A stretch of DNA of 64,000 bases from Pseudomonas abietaniphila. Its GTDB lineage: Bacteria; Pseudomonadota; Gammaproteobacteria; Pseudomonadales; Pseudomonadaceae. The position numbers were made by a program, and so were the translations under genes. The notes under the pieces were generated by a model. It saw only the letters and a list, made by a program, of their open reading frames with translations, searched no databases and was not told the origin of the DNA. The stretch spans positions 2,666,001 through 2,730,000 of the forward strand of contig NZ_CP155619.1 of NCBI RefSeq assembly GCF_039697315.1. The letters run 5' to 3'. This document shows, piece after piece, positions 41,513 to 46,585 of the stretch. Positions within the stretch are counted from its first letter, which is position 1. Every line of letters starts with the position of its first letter.

Positions 41513-42811
41513 ATGGACGTCACCGCAACTCTGAGCCTGGGCGATCCGCTGGAACCCGCACGCAAGGCCACCGCTGAAATGCTGCAGAACCGGGAGCGCA
41601 CCTACTCGCTGCCGCAGCCTTTCTACAGCGATGAGCGGCTGTTTGAAATCGACATGCAGGAAATCTTTCAAAAAGAATGGCTGATTGCAGGCATGACCTG
41701 TGAAATCCCGGCCAAGGGCAACTTCCTGACCCTGCAGATCGGCAAGAACCCGATTCTGGTCGTGCGTGCGCCGGACGGTTCGATCAACGCCTTCCACAAC
41801 GTCTGCCGTCACCGCGGTTCGCGTCTGTGCACCAAGGAAAAAGGCAAAGTCGCCAAGCTGGTGTGCCCTTACCACCAGTGGACCTATGAACTCGACGGTC
41901 GTCTGCTGTATGCAGGCACCGAAATGGGCGCTGACTTCGACATGAAGCAGTTCAGCCTCAAGCCCGTGAACTGCAAAGTCGCTGGCGGTTACATCTTCAT
42001 CAGCCTGGCGGCCAATCCGCCAGCCATCGACGAGTTCCTGCAGACGCTGAATCACTACATGGAACCGTACGACATGGAGAACACCAAGGTGGCGGTACAA
42101 ACCACCTTGATGGAAAAAGCCAACTGGAAACTCGTGCTGGAAAACAACCGTGAGTGCTACCACTGCAACGGTTCGCATCCGGAGCTGCTGAACACTCTGC
42201 TGGAATGGGACGACGTGACCGATCCACGCGCCGACCAGGCGTTCAAGGACCACGTCGCAGCATCCGCCGCTGCCTGGGAAGCCGAGAAGATCCCGTTTGC
42301 TCACGCCAGCTTCGGTCTGCGCAACCGCATCGTGCGCATGCCGCTGCTCAAAGGTACCGTGTCCATGACCATGGACGGCAAACAAGGCAGCCAGAAGCTC
42401 ATGGGCCGTATCAAGAATCCGGACCTGGGTTCGATGCGCATCCTGCACCTGCCGCACGCCTGGAACCACTGCATGGGCGACCACGTGATCGTATTCACCG
42501 TGTGGCCGATCAGCGCCCAGGAAACCATGGTCACCACCAAATGGCTGGTGCATAAAGACGCCGTTGAAGGCGTGGACTACGACGTCGCGCGCCTGCGTGA
42601 AGTCTGGGACGCGACCAACGATCAGGATCGTCGTCTGGCCGAAGAAAACCAGCGCGGCATCAACTCCATCGCCTACCAGCCAGGCCCGTACTCCAAGACC
42701 TACGAGTTCGGCGTGGTCAACTTCATCGACTGGTACAGCGCCAAGCTCCTGGAAAACATGGGTGCCGAGCCTGCGCCGTATTTGAAAGGTGTGGCGGTTA
42801 ACCACGAGTAA
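41513..42811 (+). CDS. gbcA: glycine betaine demethylase, Rieske oxygenase subunit
   Basis: 432 residues. The Rieske 2Fe-2S motif is CRHRGSRLCTKE...CPYHQW (residues about 98-122), the mononuclear iron His pair lies in NNRECYHCNGSHPELL, and the downstream catalytic Asp is in the C-terminal third. It converts glycine betaine and O2 to dimethylglycine and formaldehyde. The start MDVTATLSLGDPLEPARKAT is family-typical and sits behind GGACTTGAAAG. Confidence 0.96.
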   Translation: MDVTATLSLGDPLEPARKATAEMLQNRERTYSLPQPFYSDERLFEIDMQEIFQKEWLIAGMTCEIPAKGNFLTLQIGKNPILVVRAPDGSINAFHNVCRHRGSRLCTKEKGKVAKLVCPYHQWTYELDGRLLYAGTEMGADFDMKQFSLKPVNCKVAGGYIFISLAANPPAIDEFLQTLNHYMEPYDMENTKVAVQTTLMEKANWKLVLENNRECYHCNGSHPELLNTLLEWDDVTDPRADQAFKDHVAASAAAWEAEKIPFAHASFGLRNRIVRMPLLKGTVSMTMDGKQGSQKLMGRIKNPDLGSMRILHLPHAWNHCMGDHVIVFTVWPISAQETMVTTKWLVHKDAVEGVDYDVARLREVWDATNDQDRRLAEENQRGINSIAYQPGPYSKTYEFGVVNFIDWYSAKLLENMGAEPAPYLKGVAVNHE

Positions 42812-42829: not shown

Positions 42830-42921
42830 CTGTGGAGATTCCGACAGTGATGACGGTGGCGAAAGCGTTGTATTACACAGACCGCATTCGCCACCGTCGT
42901 AACCTCCGGCAGCTCCCACAG
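42830..42921. repeat. REP-type palindrome pair, GTCGTAACCTCCG family
   Basis: CTGTGGAGATTCCGACAGTG on the left is a worn partner of CCACCGTCGTAACCTCCGGC and GCTCCCACAG on the right. Same family as 63541-63630, with which it shares the right half. Confidence 0.75.
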
Positions 42922-43023
42922 GTTTCCAAGACAGTCCCCTGAACGCCACTCAAGCCTGATCAAAAAACACTCAAACCTCCCGGACACCATCTCCGCCGCA
43001 CCCGCGCGACATCCACAAACAAC

Positions 43024-43058
43024 TTATCCACAGCACAACCCACAGCAATTGTGGGAAA
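43024..43058 (+). other. DnaA box pair 1
   Basis: TTATCCACA (43024-43032) with inverted TGTGGGAAA at 43050-43058. Confidence 0.8.
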
Positions 43059-43195
43059 GTCGATTTCTCCCTGTGCAAAAAGCCAAGAAAAACCGTGACT
43101 TATTCAAGAAGCTGTATACCTGCCAATACTGTTCATTTATTGATCAACCATGTGCAGGCCACGGTTTATAAGGCCCTCAAGGGATAGCGAACACC

Positions 43196-43230
43196 TTATC
43201 CACAGAAGCGCCAACAGAGAATGTGCGCAA
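43196..43230 (+). other. DnaA box pair 2
   Basis: TTATCCACA (43196-43204) with inverted TGTGCGCAA at 43222-43230; TTGATCAA upstream at 43140-43147. Confidence 0.8.
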
Positions 43231-43387
43231 CTCGGGTTATTACGTTTCGAGGTGTGGAAAAGTCGCTTGGATACTCGAAATGGTAGGCTTCAAGCTATGA
43301 ATCGCTGAAGAAACTCCAGATTGATCAATTTTTGATCAATACCTTGAAGCCCCCTATCTATATGGCTTGCCGGCGATGACGAACAAC

Positions 43388-43422
43388 TTATCCACACAAG
43401 CGCTAACAGAGAATGTGGGCAA
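43388..43422 (+). other. DnaA box pair 3
   Basis: TTATCCACA (43388-43396) with inverted TGTGGGCAA at 43414-43422; TTGATCAA doublet upstream at 43321 and 43332. Confidence 0.8.
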
Positions 43423-43548
43423 ATATGAGCAGGCCCAAAACTCGACGCGTGGAAAAAAACGTTTAAAAACCAATGGATACAGTGATCAATATTTGATCAA
43501 CGGCTGGAAACCCTCTAGATACGTGGCCTGGAGAAGACGGCGAACACC

Positions 43549-43583
43549 TTATCCACAGGTGAGCTCACAGAGATTGTGGGTAG
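43549..43583 (+). other. DnaA box pair 4
   Basis: TTATCCACA (43549-43557) with inverted TGTGGGTAG at 43575-43583, the latter just inside the 3' end of the rhs-core gene; GTGATCAA/TTGATCAA doublet upstream at 43482 and 43493. Confidence 0.8.
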
Positions 43584-44482
43584 GTGTGCGCCATGATCAC
43601 TTCCACGTTTATCTGCTCTCCTTCGTCCAGTCCGTCGAAGTAGTGGGTTCTCAGGCGTTGCGCGCTTGTTAATGGGGGACTCGCCGGTTGCGTTTTACTG
43701 ATGCTGGCAATACTACCCCGCACTTTGCTGAGATCATCACGCAGTGCATTCCCGTATGGGTTGGCAACAATTGAGGGACGAACAGAAACGGCGCCCGGCA
43801 TTTTTGGCGTGACGGGGGTTCTGCCGAACAACTGTGTGACTCGGTTGACAGCGGCCCTCCTCAGCTCTTTCTTGGCAACCAGACTCTGAACACCCAACCC
43901 TACGCGGGTCACGGCTCCCAATGCCGAGATCGCGGTGCCCACATGGGCGACGTAACGCGCCTCTTTAACACCGGCGAGCGTCAACGAAGACGCAGCGATT
44001 GCGAGGCTTGAACCGACCAATGTCATTCGTGCGGCCACCAAGGTGGCCCCGACCGGCGGACCGGCTACGGCGGCTGCTATTACCGTGGCGGCGATTGTGA
44101 AAGCGTGAAGGCCGATCGTCAGTACAGGCTGCAGCCAGTCAGGCGTTCGCCCTGTCGGATCAACATAGTTGACCGGATCACCCAGGCAATAGGTGTAGGC
44201 ATTGAGCCCGCCTTTATCAAAGGGGCTTAGCGCGTCGGGACTGTGGAAACGCTTGAGCGCAGGGTTATAGATCCGATGACCGTTACCGAGGTGATACCAG
44301 CCCGTGCCCTGCTCTCGTAACTGGCCATTGAAGCCCGAGTGGCTAATCTGCGCCTCATCGCGGGGTTGGGTGCCATAAGCCGTATAGGCCATATGCCCTG
44401 ATTCAGACGGCGCAAATCCTGCCAGGACAGTGTTGTGGCGATCCGTGGCCAGCAGCAGCGAACGAAAGGAAGGCGCATCCAT
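43565..44482 (-). CDS. RHS repeat-associated core domain protein (orphan, short)
   Basis: 305 residues. The first 110 residues carry the Rhs/YD core end: YTAYGTQPRDEAQISHSGFN, HLGNGHRIYNPALKRFHSPD and DALSPFDKGGLNAYTYCLGD, closing with DPTGRTPDWLQP. The remaining 190 residues are a variable tail with two hydrophobic stretches (IAATVIAAAVAGPPVGATLV and VGSSLAIAASSLTLAGV) and a polar end. Such short stand-alone proteins, beginning FRSLLLATDRHNTVLAG, are common in Pseudomonas. In full-length Rhs proteins the tail after this core is the toxin. No clear immunity gene sits behind its stop, where the DnaA-box array begins. Confidence 0.8.
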   Translation of the reverse strand: MDAPSFRSLLLATDRHNTVLAGFAPSESGHMAYTAYGTQPRDEAQISHSGFNGQLREQGTGWYHLGNGHRIYNPALKRFHSPDALSPFDKGGLNAYTYCLGDPVNYVDPTGRTPDWLQPVLTIGLHAFTIAATVIAAAVAGPPVGATLVAARMTLVGSSLAIAASSLTLAGVKEARYVAHVGTAISALGAVTRVGLGVQSLVAKKELRRAAVNRVTQLFGRTPVTPKMPGAVSVRPSIVANPYGNALRDDLSKVRGSIASISKTQPASPPLTSAQRLRTHYFDGLDEGEQINVEVIMAHTYPQSL

Positions 44483-44508: not shown

Positions 44509-44517
44509 TGTGGATAA
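44509..44517 (-). other. DnaA box between rhs-core gene and etfB
   Basis: TGTGGATAA, perfect on the minus strand, followed by a looser TGTGGGTAA at 44537-44545 in the same orientation. Confidence 0.65.
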
Positions 44518-44571: not shown

Positions 44572-45375
44572 CTAGCGCACCACCCCTTCTTCAATCAACA
44601 ACTTCAAGATCGCCGCAGCGCCTTCCTGAGGGCTGACCCCCTTAAGCACCTGACCGCCGCCACCGCTGGCCTTCGCCGTCGCAGCCTTCATGCGATCCGC
44701 ACCGCTTTTGGCCTTGATGACCTTCAGGCGTTTCGGGCGAGGTTTGGCGGGGCTGAGTTCGGCACCTGTGAATAACTCGTCGATGACGACGTCGATCTGC
44801 TCGACATCCAGCACGCCCCGTTGGGCGGGACCGTACGCGCTTTGGCGGGGTTTGGGCGCTGCGTTATCCACAGTGGCGAGAAAGGGCAATCTCACCTTGA
44901 GGCGACGACGCTGGCCACGGGGCAGCGCTTGCAGCACCTGAGCGGTGCCGTTGCTCATGGATTCGACCTCGGCCATGCCCACGACGAGCGGCCAACCGAG
45001 CTTTTCAGCCAGTAGATAAGGCAGCATGCCGGAACCTTCGCCGGTTTCGGCCTGACTGCCCGCAAGCACCAACTGAACACCGGATTCACGGATGTAATCG
45101 GTCAATCCCGGCAGCGCATCGGCGCCTTCAGGCTGTTCCAAGACGTGTAGTTCACTCAGGCCCATGCCGAGATACGCCCGCAGTGCAGGCTCTTCGGCGT
45201 TGCCCGCGTGCAACACGTGCAAGTTATCCCCAGCCAGTTGAAGGCCAAGCTCCACAGCACGCGCGTCTTGCTCGGCGCGACGCGGACGACCGGATGTTGG
45301 ATGCGCGCCGATGGAAACCAGGCTGATGACGTGCAGCGCGCTTTTATCCACAGGTGTGTTGTTGTCAGGCTGCAT
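44572..45375 (-). CDS. electron transfer flavoprotein beta-type subunit (dimethylglycine pathway)
   Basis: 267 residues, ETF beta/FixA-type fold: ALHVISLVSIGAHPTSGRPR at the start, EQDARAVELGLQL, and VQLVLAGSQAETGEGSGMLP with the typical AMP-binding loop. The C-terminal part (SPQEGAAAILKLLIEEGVV) ends like other ETF beta subunits. It pairs with the alpha subunit, whose stop codon overlaps its start by 11 bases. It would accept electrons from DgcAB. It is more divergent than general EtfB and matches the PA5401 position in P. aeruginosa. It contains two perfect DnaA boxes (44864-44872, 45344-45352). Confidence 0.85.
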   Translation of the reverse strand: MQPDNNTPVDKSALHVISLVSIGAHPTSGRPRRAEQDARAVELGLQLAGDNLHVLHAGNAEEPALRAYLGMGLSELHVLEQPEGADALPGLTDYIRESGVQLVLAGSQAETGEGSGMLPYLLAEKLGWPLVVGMAEVESMSNGTAQVLQALPRGQRRRLKVRLPFLATVDNAAPKPRQSAYGPAQRGVLDVEQIDVVIDELFTGAELSPAKPRPKRLKVIKAKSGADRMKAATAKASGGGGQVLKGVSPQEGAAAILKLLIEEGVVR

Positions 45376-46585
45376 CGCGTTTTGCCTCGTTCCGGTAAGC
45401 CTCGACGGCCTCAATCAGGGCGTTGAGCACGTCGGCGCTCTCGCCAATGACTGACAAATCAGCACGTTTGATCATGTCGCAGGTCGGGTCGAGGTTAATC
45501 GCCACGACTTTGTCGCAGGCCCCGATACCCTGTAAATGCTGGATCGCGCCCGAGATACCCACAGCCACGTAAACACGCGCAGTGACCCAGGTACCAGACG
45601 CACCGACCTGGCGATCACGGGTCATGAACCCATCGTCCACGGCCACGCGGGATGCGCCCTCCGTAGCGCCCAGCGCTGCGGCGGTGCGGTGGAAAAGCGC
45701 CCAGTCCTTCACGCCGTTGCCGCCGGAGAAAATGAATTCTGCTTCCGCCATGGGGATAAGTGCCGGGTCGACGGCCACGGCCCCAAGGTCTTCGATCCGG
45801 GCGATGCTGCGCGCGATGGTTGTGGACAACTCAACCGGCAGCGCTTCATGACGTGTTTCGCTGACGGGTTCGGCACACTCTGCAGCGGCCAGAATCAAGC
45901 GCGAGACAGGACGCGAAAGGTCTTCACGCCCAGCGCCTGCACGGCCAGTGCTGCGTTCGTCCTTGACCTGCCAGACGCGCGTTGCAGGGCGCTCACCCAG
46001 GCTCGCCGCGAAACGGCGGCCCAGTTCACCGCCACCGCTGCGGCTGTCAGGCAGCAACCAATGGCGTGGGTCGAACTGGTTATCCACAGCCCGCAGACCT
46101 TGCACCCGTTGCTCGGGCGAATAACCGTTGAATTCACTGCCTTCCAGCACCAGCAGACGGTCCACGCCTGCCGTCTCGAAAGTGCTTTCTTTATGCTCGC
46201 CGAAGACCACGGCCAGCACAGCACCGTCCTTGCCGGCCAGGCTGTGAGCCAGGCCAAGCAGGTCGCGATCGTGGCTGCTCAGGCGACCGCCAACCATGTC
46301 CGGAACTACCGCGATGTAGAAAGTCGGCTCGGCGACTTGATGCAGTGGCAGCTGGACCTCCACAGACGCGGAGCGTTTGACGGCCCCACCCTGCTGCGCC
46401 CCGCTACGGTCGATGCGCTTGATGCCGTTCGGCCCGATGAAGCCAATCCCGTGGACGTTTTTGCGGATGACGCCGTTAGGCCCCATCCAACTGGCTTGTG
46501 TCGGCTGCATGGCCGCGTGCAAAGGATGCAGGCGGTTGCGGGCGATCCACTCGGCACGAGGGTCGCGGCGGATAATGTCGCTCAT
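45365..46585 (-). CDS. etfA: electron transfer flavoprotein alpha subunit (dimethylglycine pathway)
   Basis: 406 residues, longer than the usual 310 because of an N-terminal extension with repeats (WMGPNGVIRKNVHGIGFIGP). The C-terminal FAD domain is clear: VGASGTWVTARVYVAVGISG, AIQHLQGI, VVAINLDPTCDMIKRADLSV. It forms the ETF that takes electrons from the dimethylglycine dehydrogenase. Position equals PA5400. It overlaps dgcB by one base at its start and etfB at its end, so the four genes form one leftward operon. A DnaA box (46080-46088) lies within it. Confidence 0.9.
   Translation of the reverse strand: MSDIIRRDPRAEWIARNRLHPLHAAMQPTQASWMGPNGVIRKNVHGIGFIGPNGIKRIDRSGAQQGGAVKRSASVEVQLPLHQVAEPTFYIAVVPDMVGGRLSSHDRDLLGLAHSLAGKDGAVLAVVFGEHKESTFETAGVDRLLVLEGSEFNGYSPEQRVQGLRAVDNQFDPRHWLLPDSRSGGGELGRRFAASLGERPATRVWQVKDERSTGRAGAGREDLSRPVSRLILAAAECAEPVSETRHEALPVELSTTIARSIARIEDLGAVAVDPALIPMAEAEFIFSGGNGVKDWALFHRTAAALGATEGASRVAVDDGFMTRDRQVGASGTWVTARVYVAVGISGAIQHLQGIGACDKVVAINLDPTCDMIKRADLSVIGESADVLNALIEAVEAYRNEAKRDAA

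Follow-up and report, generated by a model that had tools for sequence, protein, structure and literature searches.

A Tandem, Helically Phased Array of DnaA Boxes with DARS-Like Geometry in Pseudomonas

An array of four DnaA-box units was found in a 64-kb window (the whole stretch of Pseudomonas abietaniphila DNA that was analyzed, 64,000 nucleotides), and selection on the geometry of this array is well supported by sequence comparison. We give somewhat less than an even chance to the reading that, by its sequence, the array is a tandem, helically phased, conserved, and noncoding DnaA control locus resembling DARS of Escherichia coli; it looks like a switch that would help to set the timing of chromosome copying. 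This reading is ranked first because the three-box geometry of the units is their most exact and most widespread feature, and the chief competing explanation is a site that resembles datA or titrates DnaA.

A DnaA-Box Array between Two Gene 3′ Ends

The four perfect DnaA boxes (TTATCCACA), all on the + strand, open the unit cores listed in Table 1, and looser inverted boxes (TTTCCCACA, TTGCGCACA, TTGCCCACA, and CTACCCACA) start at +26 of boxes 1 to 4, coordinates that bear out a preceding sequence-only reading of four perfect boxes, each followed at 26 bp by a looser box in inverted orientation. That reading had also placed the palindrome TTGATCAA 56 bp before three of the boxes; the positions are right (43140, 43332, and 43493 for boxes 2, 3, and 4), but TTGATCAA forms one half of a longer dyad, which begins at -65 and agrees with the Fis consensus. 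A fourth TTGATCAA copy lies at 43321. Identity among units 2 to 4 is 70-72% over 109 nt. With at most one mismatch, the window contains 21 DnaA sites against 5.93 expected (SD 2.22), a number that none of 100 shuffles reached. Perfect boxes number nine in the whole window, and those at 44509, 44864, 45344, and 46080 lie just past the array, within the etf genes or next to them. The extra inverted box of unit 2 sits at +47 in many relatives, one turn shorter than in the window. DnaA-like boxes at 45821-45829 and 46080-46088 are within etfA and have matching places in the etfA of many relatives, for which coding constraint may be the explanation.

Table 1. Features of the array and its neighbors (window positions)
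Feature	Position	Strand	Description
GbcA-like Rieske oxygenase, left neighbor	41513..42811	+	PF00848, PF00355; 3′ end toward array
Fis-like dyad, unit 1	42958..42972	.	starts at -66; one mismatch to GNNYANNNNNTRNNC
Unit 1 core	43024..43058	+	TTATCCACA, 3 bp, CAACCCACA, 5 bp, TGTGGGAAA; III-II-I geometry
Perfect Fis consensus, box 2	43131..43145	.	starts 65 bp upstream of box 2
Unit 2 core	43196..43230	+	perfect box; +12 place weak; +26 box inverted
Extra DnaA box TTTTCCACA	43253..43261	-	inverted; +57 of unit 2
Perfect Fis consensus, box 3	43323..43337	.	starts 65 bp upstream of box 3
Unit 3 core	43388..43422	+	perfect box; +12 place weak; +26 box inverted
Perfect Fis consensus, box 4	43484..43498	.	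starts 65 bp upstream of box 4
Unit 4 core	43549..43583	+	perfect box; +12 place weak; +26 box inverted; overlaps stop end of Rhs-core ORF
ORF with Rhs-associated core domain	43565-44482	-	TIGR03696; between array and etfB
ETF-domain protein (etfB), right neighbor past Rhs-core ORF	44572..45414	-	PF01012; 3′ end toward array

The array sits between gbcA and the etf/dgc genes, flanked by the 3′ ends of two convergent neighbors, and so is the promoter of neither gene. The names gbcA, dgc, and etf are provisional and follow the earlier reading, the analysis itself yielding only Pfam domains. The stop of the Rhs-core ORF falls within the fourth DnaA core, and a relative of this ORF was found in one of 80 other gbcA loci (51% over part of the sequence). 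Directly past gbcA, at 42834-42916, there is an imperfect 34-nt inverted repeat, perhaps a terminator or a REP-like hairpin.

Units repeated between two 3′ gene ends could also be small RNA genes in tandem, or gene-end sequences in which TTATCCACA occurs by chance, and seven of eight consensus folds are lower in energy than column shuffles (z -3.3 to -19). We nevertheless consider this very improbable: the fold energies are tiny (lowest -4.05 kcal/mol), the folds resemble short DNA dyads by eye, no Rfam family is found at gathering score, and the array persists where insertions separate it from gbcA (G083 and G319) or from etfB (the P. abietaniphila genome and G314).

Unit Spacing Changes by Whole Helical Turns

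A scan for units covered 141 loci from 130 genomes and found at least two clustered units in 63 genomes. Of these, 49 passed a filter that required four units spaced 145-200 bp apart; the 14 genomes dropped have two or three units or distances such as 123, 127, 128, 135, 140, 158, 159, and 506 bp, some of them off the lattice formed by the rest. Box-to-box distances in the 49 four-unit genomes are 149-150, 160-162, 171-172, 182-183, or 192-193 bp: the first interval is 160/161, 171/172, or 182/183, the second 182/183 or 192/193, and the third 149/150, 160-162, or 172, most commonly 161. Steps between the distance classes are about 10.7 bp, one DNA turn, and the commonest values of adjacent classes are 10-12 bp apart. 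The best period for the 147 spacings of these 49 genomes, which as related genomes are not independent evidence, is 10.65 bp (R 0.965). For the 16 distinct values per interval the period is 10.80 bp (R 0.930), which none of 20,000 random sets equaled, a result that overstates the phasing because values 1 bp apart are not independent.

The four-unit filter was checked with 119 further loci, among the matches listed, that were picked by the sequence of one unit and in which units were clustered if no more than 260 bp apart. There, 322 of 327 spacings are at 149-151, 159-162, 170-172, 181-183, or 192-194 bp, and the five off the lattice are 54, 65, 65, 106, and 139 bp; the species of this set may overlap with those of the 49 genomes. 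A gbcA tree took in 38 of the 49 genomes (the other 11 being without a gbcA piece in the fetched loci), and with spacings rounded to lattice classes, changes of class number three, one, and seven for intervals one to three. Distances that change by whole turns while the linker sequence drifts point to selection on the helix face, and the earlier proposal that the locus is selected for its geometry draws good support from these shifts among relatives.

Geometry of the Unit Core and Likeness to DARS

Counted from the perfect box, each unit has partner places at +12 in the same direction and at +26 inverted. Mismatches to TTWTNCACA summed over the three places are 4 in unit 1, 6 in unit 4, and 7 in units 2 and 3, and outside the array the 64 kb hold one place with a score of 7 and none lower. 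In an offset scan of the 49 genomes, the inverted +26 place ranks high in all units (mean mismatches 1.94, 2.82, 2.78, and 1.10). The +12 place ranks high in unit 1 only; its means are 3.1 in unit 1 and 4.65, 4.78, and 4.12 in units 2 to 4 (medians about 5.7-5.9), and in units 2 to 4 this place is outside the nine best offsets of that scan. When both gaps were left free from 0 to 20 in 59 genomes of the genus, 121 matches were obtained in 51 genomes, with a first gap of 6 in 121 of 121 and a second gap of 6 in 116; the other five have 14 or 16, and four of these five are longer readings of units already counted. The matches were tallied by hand from rows, the first gap being checked by script on 29 strings, and because the pattern demands that the first box be perfect and that the second contain YCCACA, it passes over units whose second box is weak, among them units 2 to 4 of the window. 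The fixed three-box pattern matched 152 of 298 family genomes in 6 of 19 genera, and its reversed control matched none. Around 98 boxes of the P. abietaniphila genome outside the array, tandem partner boxes number eight at -12 and three at +12 (mean 0.83 per offset), and inverted ones five at +26 and four at +14 (mean 0.57 per offset).

Such a layout might instead serve another protein, or DnaA in organizing the chromosome (through a loop or domain close to the origin, for instance) rather than in the nucleotide cycle. Helical phasing suits any large complex in which DNA is wrapped, units 2 to 4 have at +12 a place that is conserved yet unlike a DnaA box, and the upstream stretch (one dyad between about -66 and -50 and, judged by eye, another closer to the box) is alike at the array, locus A, and at the sister loci B, C, and D described below. 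The best conserved element of the unit is, however, the perfect DnaA box, and partner boxes at equal distances also occur around nonarray boxes; we regard this explanation as improbable.

The DARS-like reading starts from E. coli DARS1 and DARS2, which we placed by presumed gene neighbors and by the best three-box match. DARS1 reads TAATACACA, 3 bp, TTATCCACA, 5 bp, and an inverted box, and the distances in DARS2 are identical. The array unit has the same order (III-3 bp-II-5 bp-I), the same spacings of 12 and 14 bp, and the same inverted box I, so its core spacing is that of DARS, and boxes I and II face each other as they do there. In DARS1 box II is the perfect one, in the array box III, and the array differs further in having four cores in tandem and a weak box II. 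Boxes I and II of the array are not near consensus (box II has 3, 5, 5, and 4 mismatches in units 1 to 4, and box I has 1, 2, 2, and 2), and for these mismatches the array is filed as DARS-like; it is not classed as DARS itself because of the weak box II in units 2 to 4, the displaced best box, and the lack of an IHF site. In the scanned stretch of DARS2, IHF- and Fis-consensus sites are on the box III side, where the array also has its bending-protein consensus sites, although the array has the Fis consensus and no perfect IHF consensus. For both DARS and the array the distance from the origin is conserved, with DARS1 and DARS2 at about 1.53 and 0.96 Mb from oriC, by a presumed E. coli oriC coordinate, versus 0.38-0.65 Mb from dnaA for the array. 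According to PMC5742627, PMC4585315, and PMC8682772, DARS boxes I and II are opposed and ADP-DnaA pairs head-to-head there with release of ADP, IHF and Fis assist at DARS2, and datA has same-direction boxes with IHF between them.

An Upstream Fis-Like Dyad and the datA Alternative

The upstream dyad spans -66 to -50 and agrees with the Fis consensus GnnYAnnnnnTRnnC given in PMC8682772. Among the 49 genomes, a perfect Fis consensus is found at -65 of unit 2 in 35, of unit 3 in 32, and of unit 4 in 9, and at -66 of unit 1 in 18. The consensus is short, occurring 0.87 times per kb in the window outside the array. In the P. abietaniphila genome, 102 of 112 perfect boxes were covered and array box 1 is short of flank, which left 101 boxes; over 111 upstream offsets these have 10 perfect Fis matches, three of them at -65, all at array boxes 2 to 4. 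At -65 the 98 nonarray boxes have a mean of 3.73 mismatches, a fit little better than the average of 4.00 and the third lowest of the 111 offsets, and the other perfect boxes of this genome show no clear preference for a Fis consensus offset. The sister units at B, C, and 4133822 have the Fis consensus with one mismatch at -65, and a perfect match at -65/-66 occurs in five of nine C units, all four D units, three of five B units of genome G376, and none of four other B units. The IHF consensus fits the array less well than the Fis consensus: no perfect one is present in the array of the window, where the closest is a one-mismatch site at 43334, and in 196 upstream stretches from the 49 genomes the best match has at least two mismatches in 159 and at most one in 37.

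These sites bear on the datA-like explanation, by which the array would gather ATP-DnaA head-to-tail and promote ATP hydrolysis after initiation, or simply titrate DnaA; its loss would then lead to premature or additional initiation. We think it somewhat unlikely but give it serious weight. All four perfect boxes point in one direction, and the E. coli datA stretch has same-direction boxes at 1745 and 1907, 162 bp apart and close to the commonest third interval of 161, with a bender site between the boxes in both. The array, 381-648 kb from dnaA in 23 genomes, lies at a distance similar to that of datA, about 467 kb from oriC, so that same-direction boxes about 160 bp apart near the origin are common to the two. 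PMC5742627 states that the boxes essential to datA all point the same way and that clusters of DnaA boxes in Bacillus subtilis and Streptomyces coelicolor act analogously; like the array, to which we liken them by description only, these clusters are away from oriC. The bender site of datA, however, is a perfect IHF consensus at 1810 of its stretch, and the array has no perfect IHF site between its boxes. Nothing in datA corresponds well to the inverted box at +26 or to the 12/14 spacing, its best three-box score being 6 with four mismatches at the box I place, and for pure titration the one-turn phasing would be needless. A datA-like function had been among the proposals of the sequence-only reading; the same-direction boxes at about 161 bp and the position at 0.38-0.65 Mb stand on its side, whereas the DARS three-box geometry and the better fit of Fis than IHF do not.

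Distribution among Relatives

A 721-bp stretch of the locus matched 152 of 199 genomes of the genus at E 0.001 or better, although some of these matches cover little sequence and may come from sister loci. A pair of perfect boxes 161-191 bp apart was found in 178 of 298 family genomes and, among the matches listed, never for the reversed control; some of these matches resemble coding sequence by eye, so this is not a count of arrays. gbcA is present in 97 of 198 family genomes, and 80 of the 97 loci were fetched. Among 27 gbcA loci of the same genus, all 13 from genomes of at least 5.6 Mb carry boxes near gbcA, 12 with at least three perfect boxes in line and one (G379) with two. The array beside gbcA is absent from the other 14, all from genomes of at most 5.4 Mb, one of which (G382) shows a single perfect box together with weak boxes there. 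Genome size is not a strict rule, since G176, at 5.3 Mb, carries the array.

Outside the genus, the array was found in one genome (G326) of 21 loci in genus g9, and no array was found at gbcA in 14 loci of g12, 7 of g15, 2 of g10, and 1 each of g14 and g3, which have one stray box (G322). In g4, each of the two loci has a single perfect box preceded at 158 bp by TTTTCCACA, and in g6 the five loci carry two to four boxes at other spacings. On the etfB side, 19 genomes of other genera have no array and three single perfect boxes; of 11 genomes of the same genus, G083 has the array and the other ten do not, and G379 has two perfect boxes within etfB. The array is thus a feature of part of the genus, and elsewhere it was lost, moved, or never present; absence from close relatives, which had been named as grounds for refuting a DnaA-binding locus, is borne out only in part, the array being kept in many relatives and missing from some of the genus.

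When named genomes were scanned with a single unit, at least 119 stretches were obtained, 97 of 119 with at least four units, and gbcA or etfA/etfB is in the same stretch in 111 of 119 among the matches listed. Titles of 80 listed matches name 78 Pseudomonas, one Neobacillus, and one Paucimonas metagenome-assembled genome; the Pseudomonas among the matches listed include P. fluorescens, P. syringae, P. chlororaphis, P. brassicacearum, P. viridiflava, and others.

Sister Loci and Position on the Chromosome

The alternative of an ordinary dispersed repeat is not borne out, but related modules do occupy other fixed loci. Sister locus B (4056388 in the P. abietaniphila genome) adjoins a histone-deacetylase-like gene, a neighbor kept in five of five fetched B loci; locus C (3783344) adjoins a 280-residue ORF without a Pfam match, a relative of which is kept in nine of nine; and locus D is a unit pair (4133822 and 4134024) by a UPF0029 gene, kept in four of four. 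The places of the sister loci were drawn from hits of the fixed pattern, among the matches listed. Locus B is multiplied in some genomes, with five units at intervals of about 257 bp in G376 (contig C13) and three units in G323 (C1:6026489-6026964).

The source genome is a single contig of 6.55 Mb with 112 perfect DnaA boxes. dnaA is near 3,101 kb and the array 392 kb off, a measurement that agrees with the earlier statement that the array is far from dnaA. dnaA was placed in 32 genomes, and coordinates were taken as samples (27 for locus A, 17 for B, and 19 for C), values from rounded genome lengths being kept apart (4, 4, and 1); for a few genomes the locus A coordinate is a partial match of the 721-bp query. 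Locus C is 589-709 kb from dnaA in 18 genomes and locus B 788-993 kb in 13. In the P. abietaniphila genome, G018, and G183, the array is on the opposite side of dnaA from that in the other 24 genomes at a similar distance, as symmetric inversions would leave it.

That the array could be a secondary or cryptic replication origin, also proposed from sequence alone, now appears scarcely credible. A second putative origin of P. aeruginosa, reportedly described by Yee and Smith (1990) and by Jiang et al. (2006), would be, like the array, a second DnaA-linked element in a pseudomonad. Two autonomously replicating elements from P. aeruginosa are reported in PMC4403523. The DnaA-box cluster has a GC content of 0.464 versus 0.574-0.614 in window blocks, but its most AT-rich 60 bp reach 0.67 versus 0.77 at oriC, and GC skew is negative on both sides (-0.012 over 20 kb to the left and -0.0245 to the right), so that neither a skew switch nor an oriC-like AT-rich unwinding element is found at the array. 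The box layout is also unlike that of oriC, and the candidate of an oriC copy was rejected for this difference.

A Proposed Multicore DnaA-Fis Complex

It is possible, and from sequence features we put it forward tentatively, that Pseudomonas has its own DnaA control loci (A to D), each built from a module with a core of DARS geometry and two dyads, one of them Fis-like, and that the four modules in one register at the main locus would form a single DnaA-Fis complex, a new multicore reactivating, or reactivating and titrating, site. Residues 418-510 of the P. abietaniphila DnaA match PDB 1j1v (E 1.9e-45), which we take to be E. coli DnaA domain IV bound to a DnaA box. DnaA would anchor on box III, a second DnaA would join head-to-tail at box II, and a third head-to-head at box I. 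Fis would bend the DNA and bring the four cores onto one face in a single complex, in which the head-to-head contact could loosen the nucleotide and convert ADP-DnaA to ATP-DnaA, as at DARS1 and DARS2. Replicated soon after initiation, the locus would double in dose early in each round, and the array would presumably act together with loci B, C, and D.

We found no description of the array in open-licence literature, in keeping with the earlier remark that no such element had been described. To our knowledge, little is known of initiation timing in pseudomonads, and we know of no Dam/SeqA system like that of E. coli in them. The array and its sister loci are defined and deletable, and the one-turn phasing is a sharp structural prediction; if true, the DARS-like reading would extend DARS-type control past the relatives of E. 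coli, in tandem form.

Two further groups of boxes in the P. abietaniphila genome were observed. At 3,067-3,184 kb, 44 of the 102 covered perfect boxes are within 85 kb of dnaA, a strong enrichment around the origin, and seven DnaA boxes lie in 1.2 kb at 3138.2-3139.4 kb. The closest match to the DARS core among the stretches of this genome that were scanned is at 4664.5 kb (1041-1075 of its stretch), in the first part of a DUF1232 ORF, with two mismatches in all and the perfect box at II, as in DARS1.
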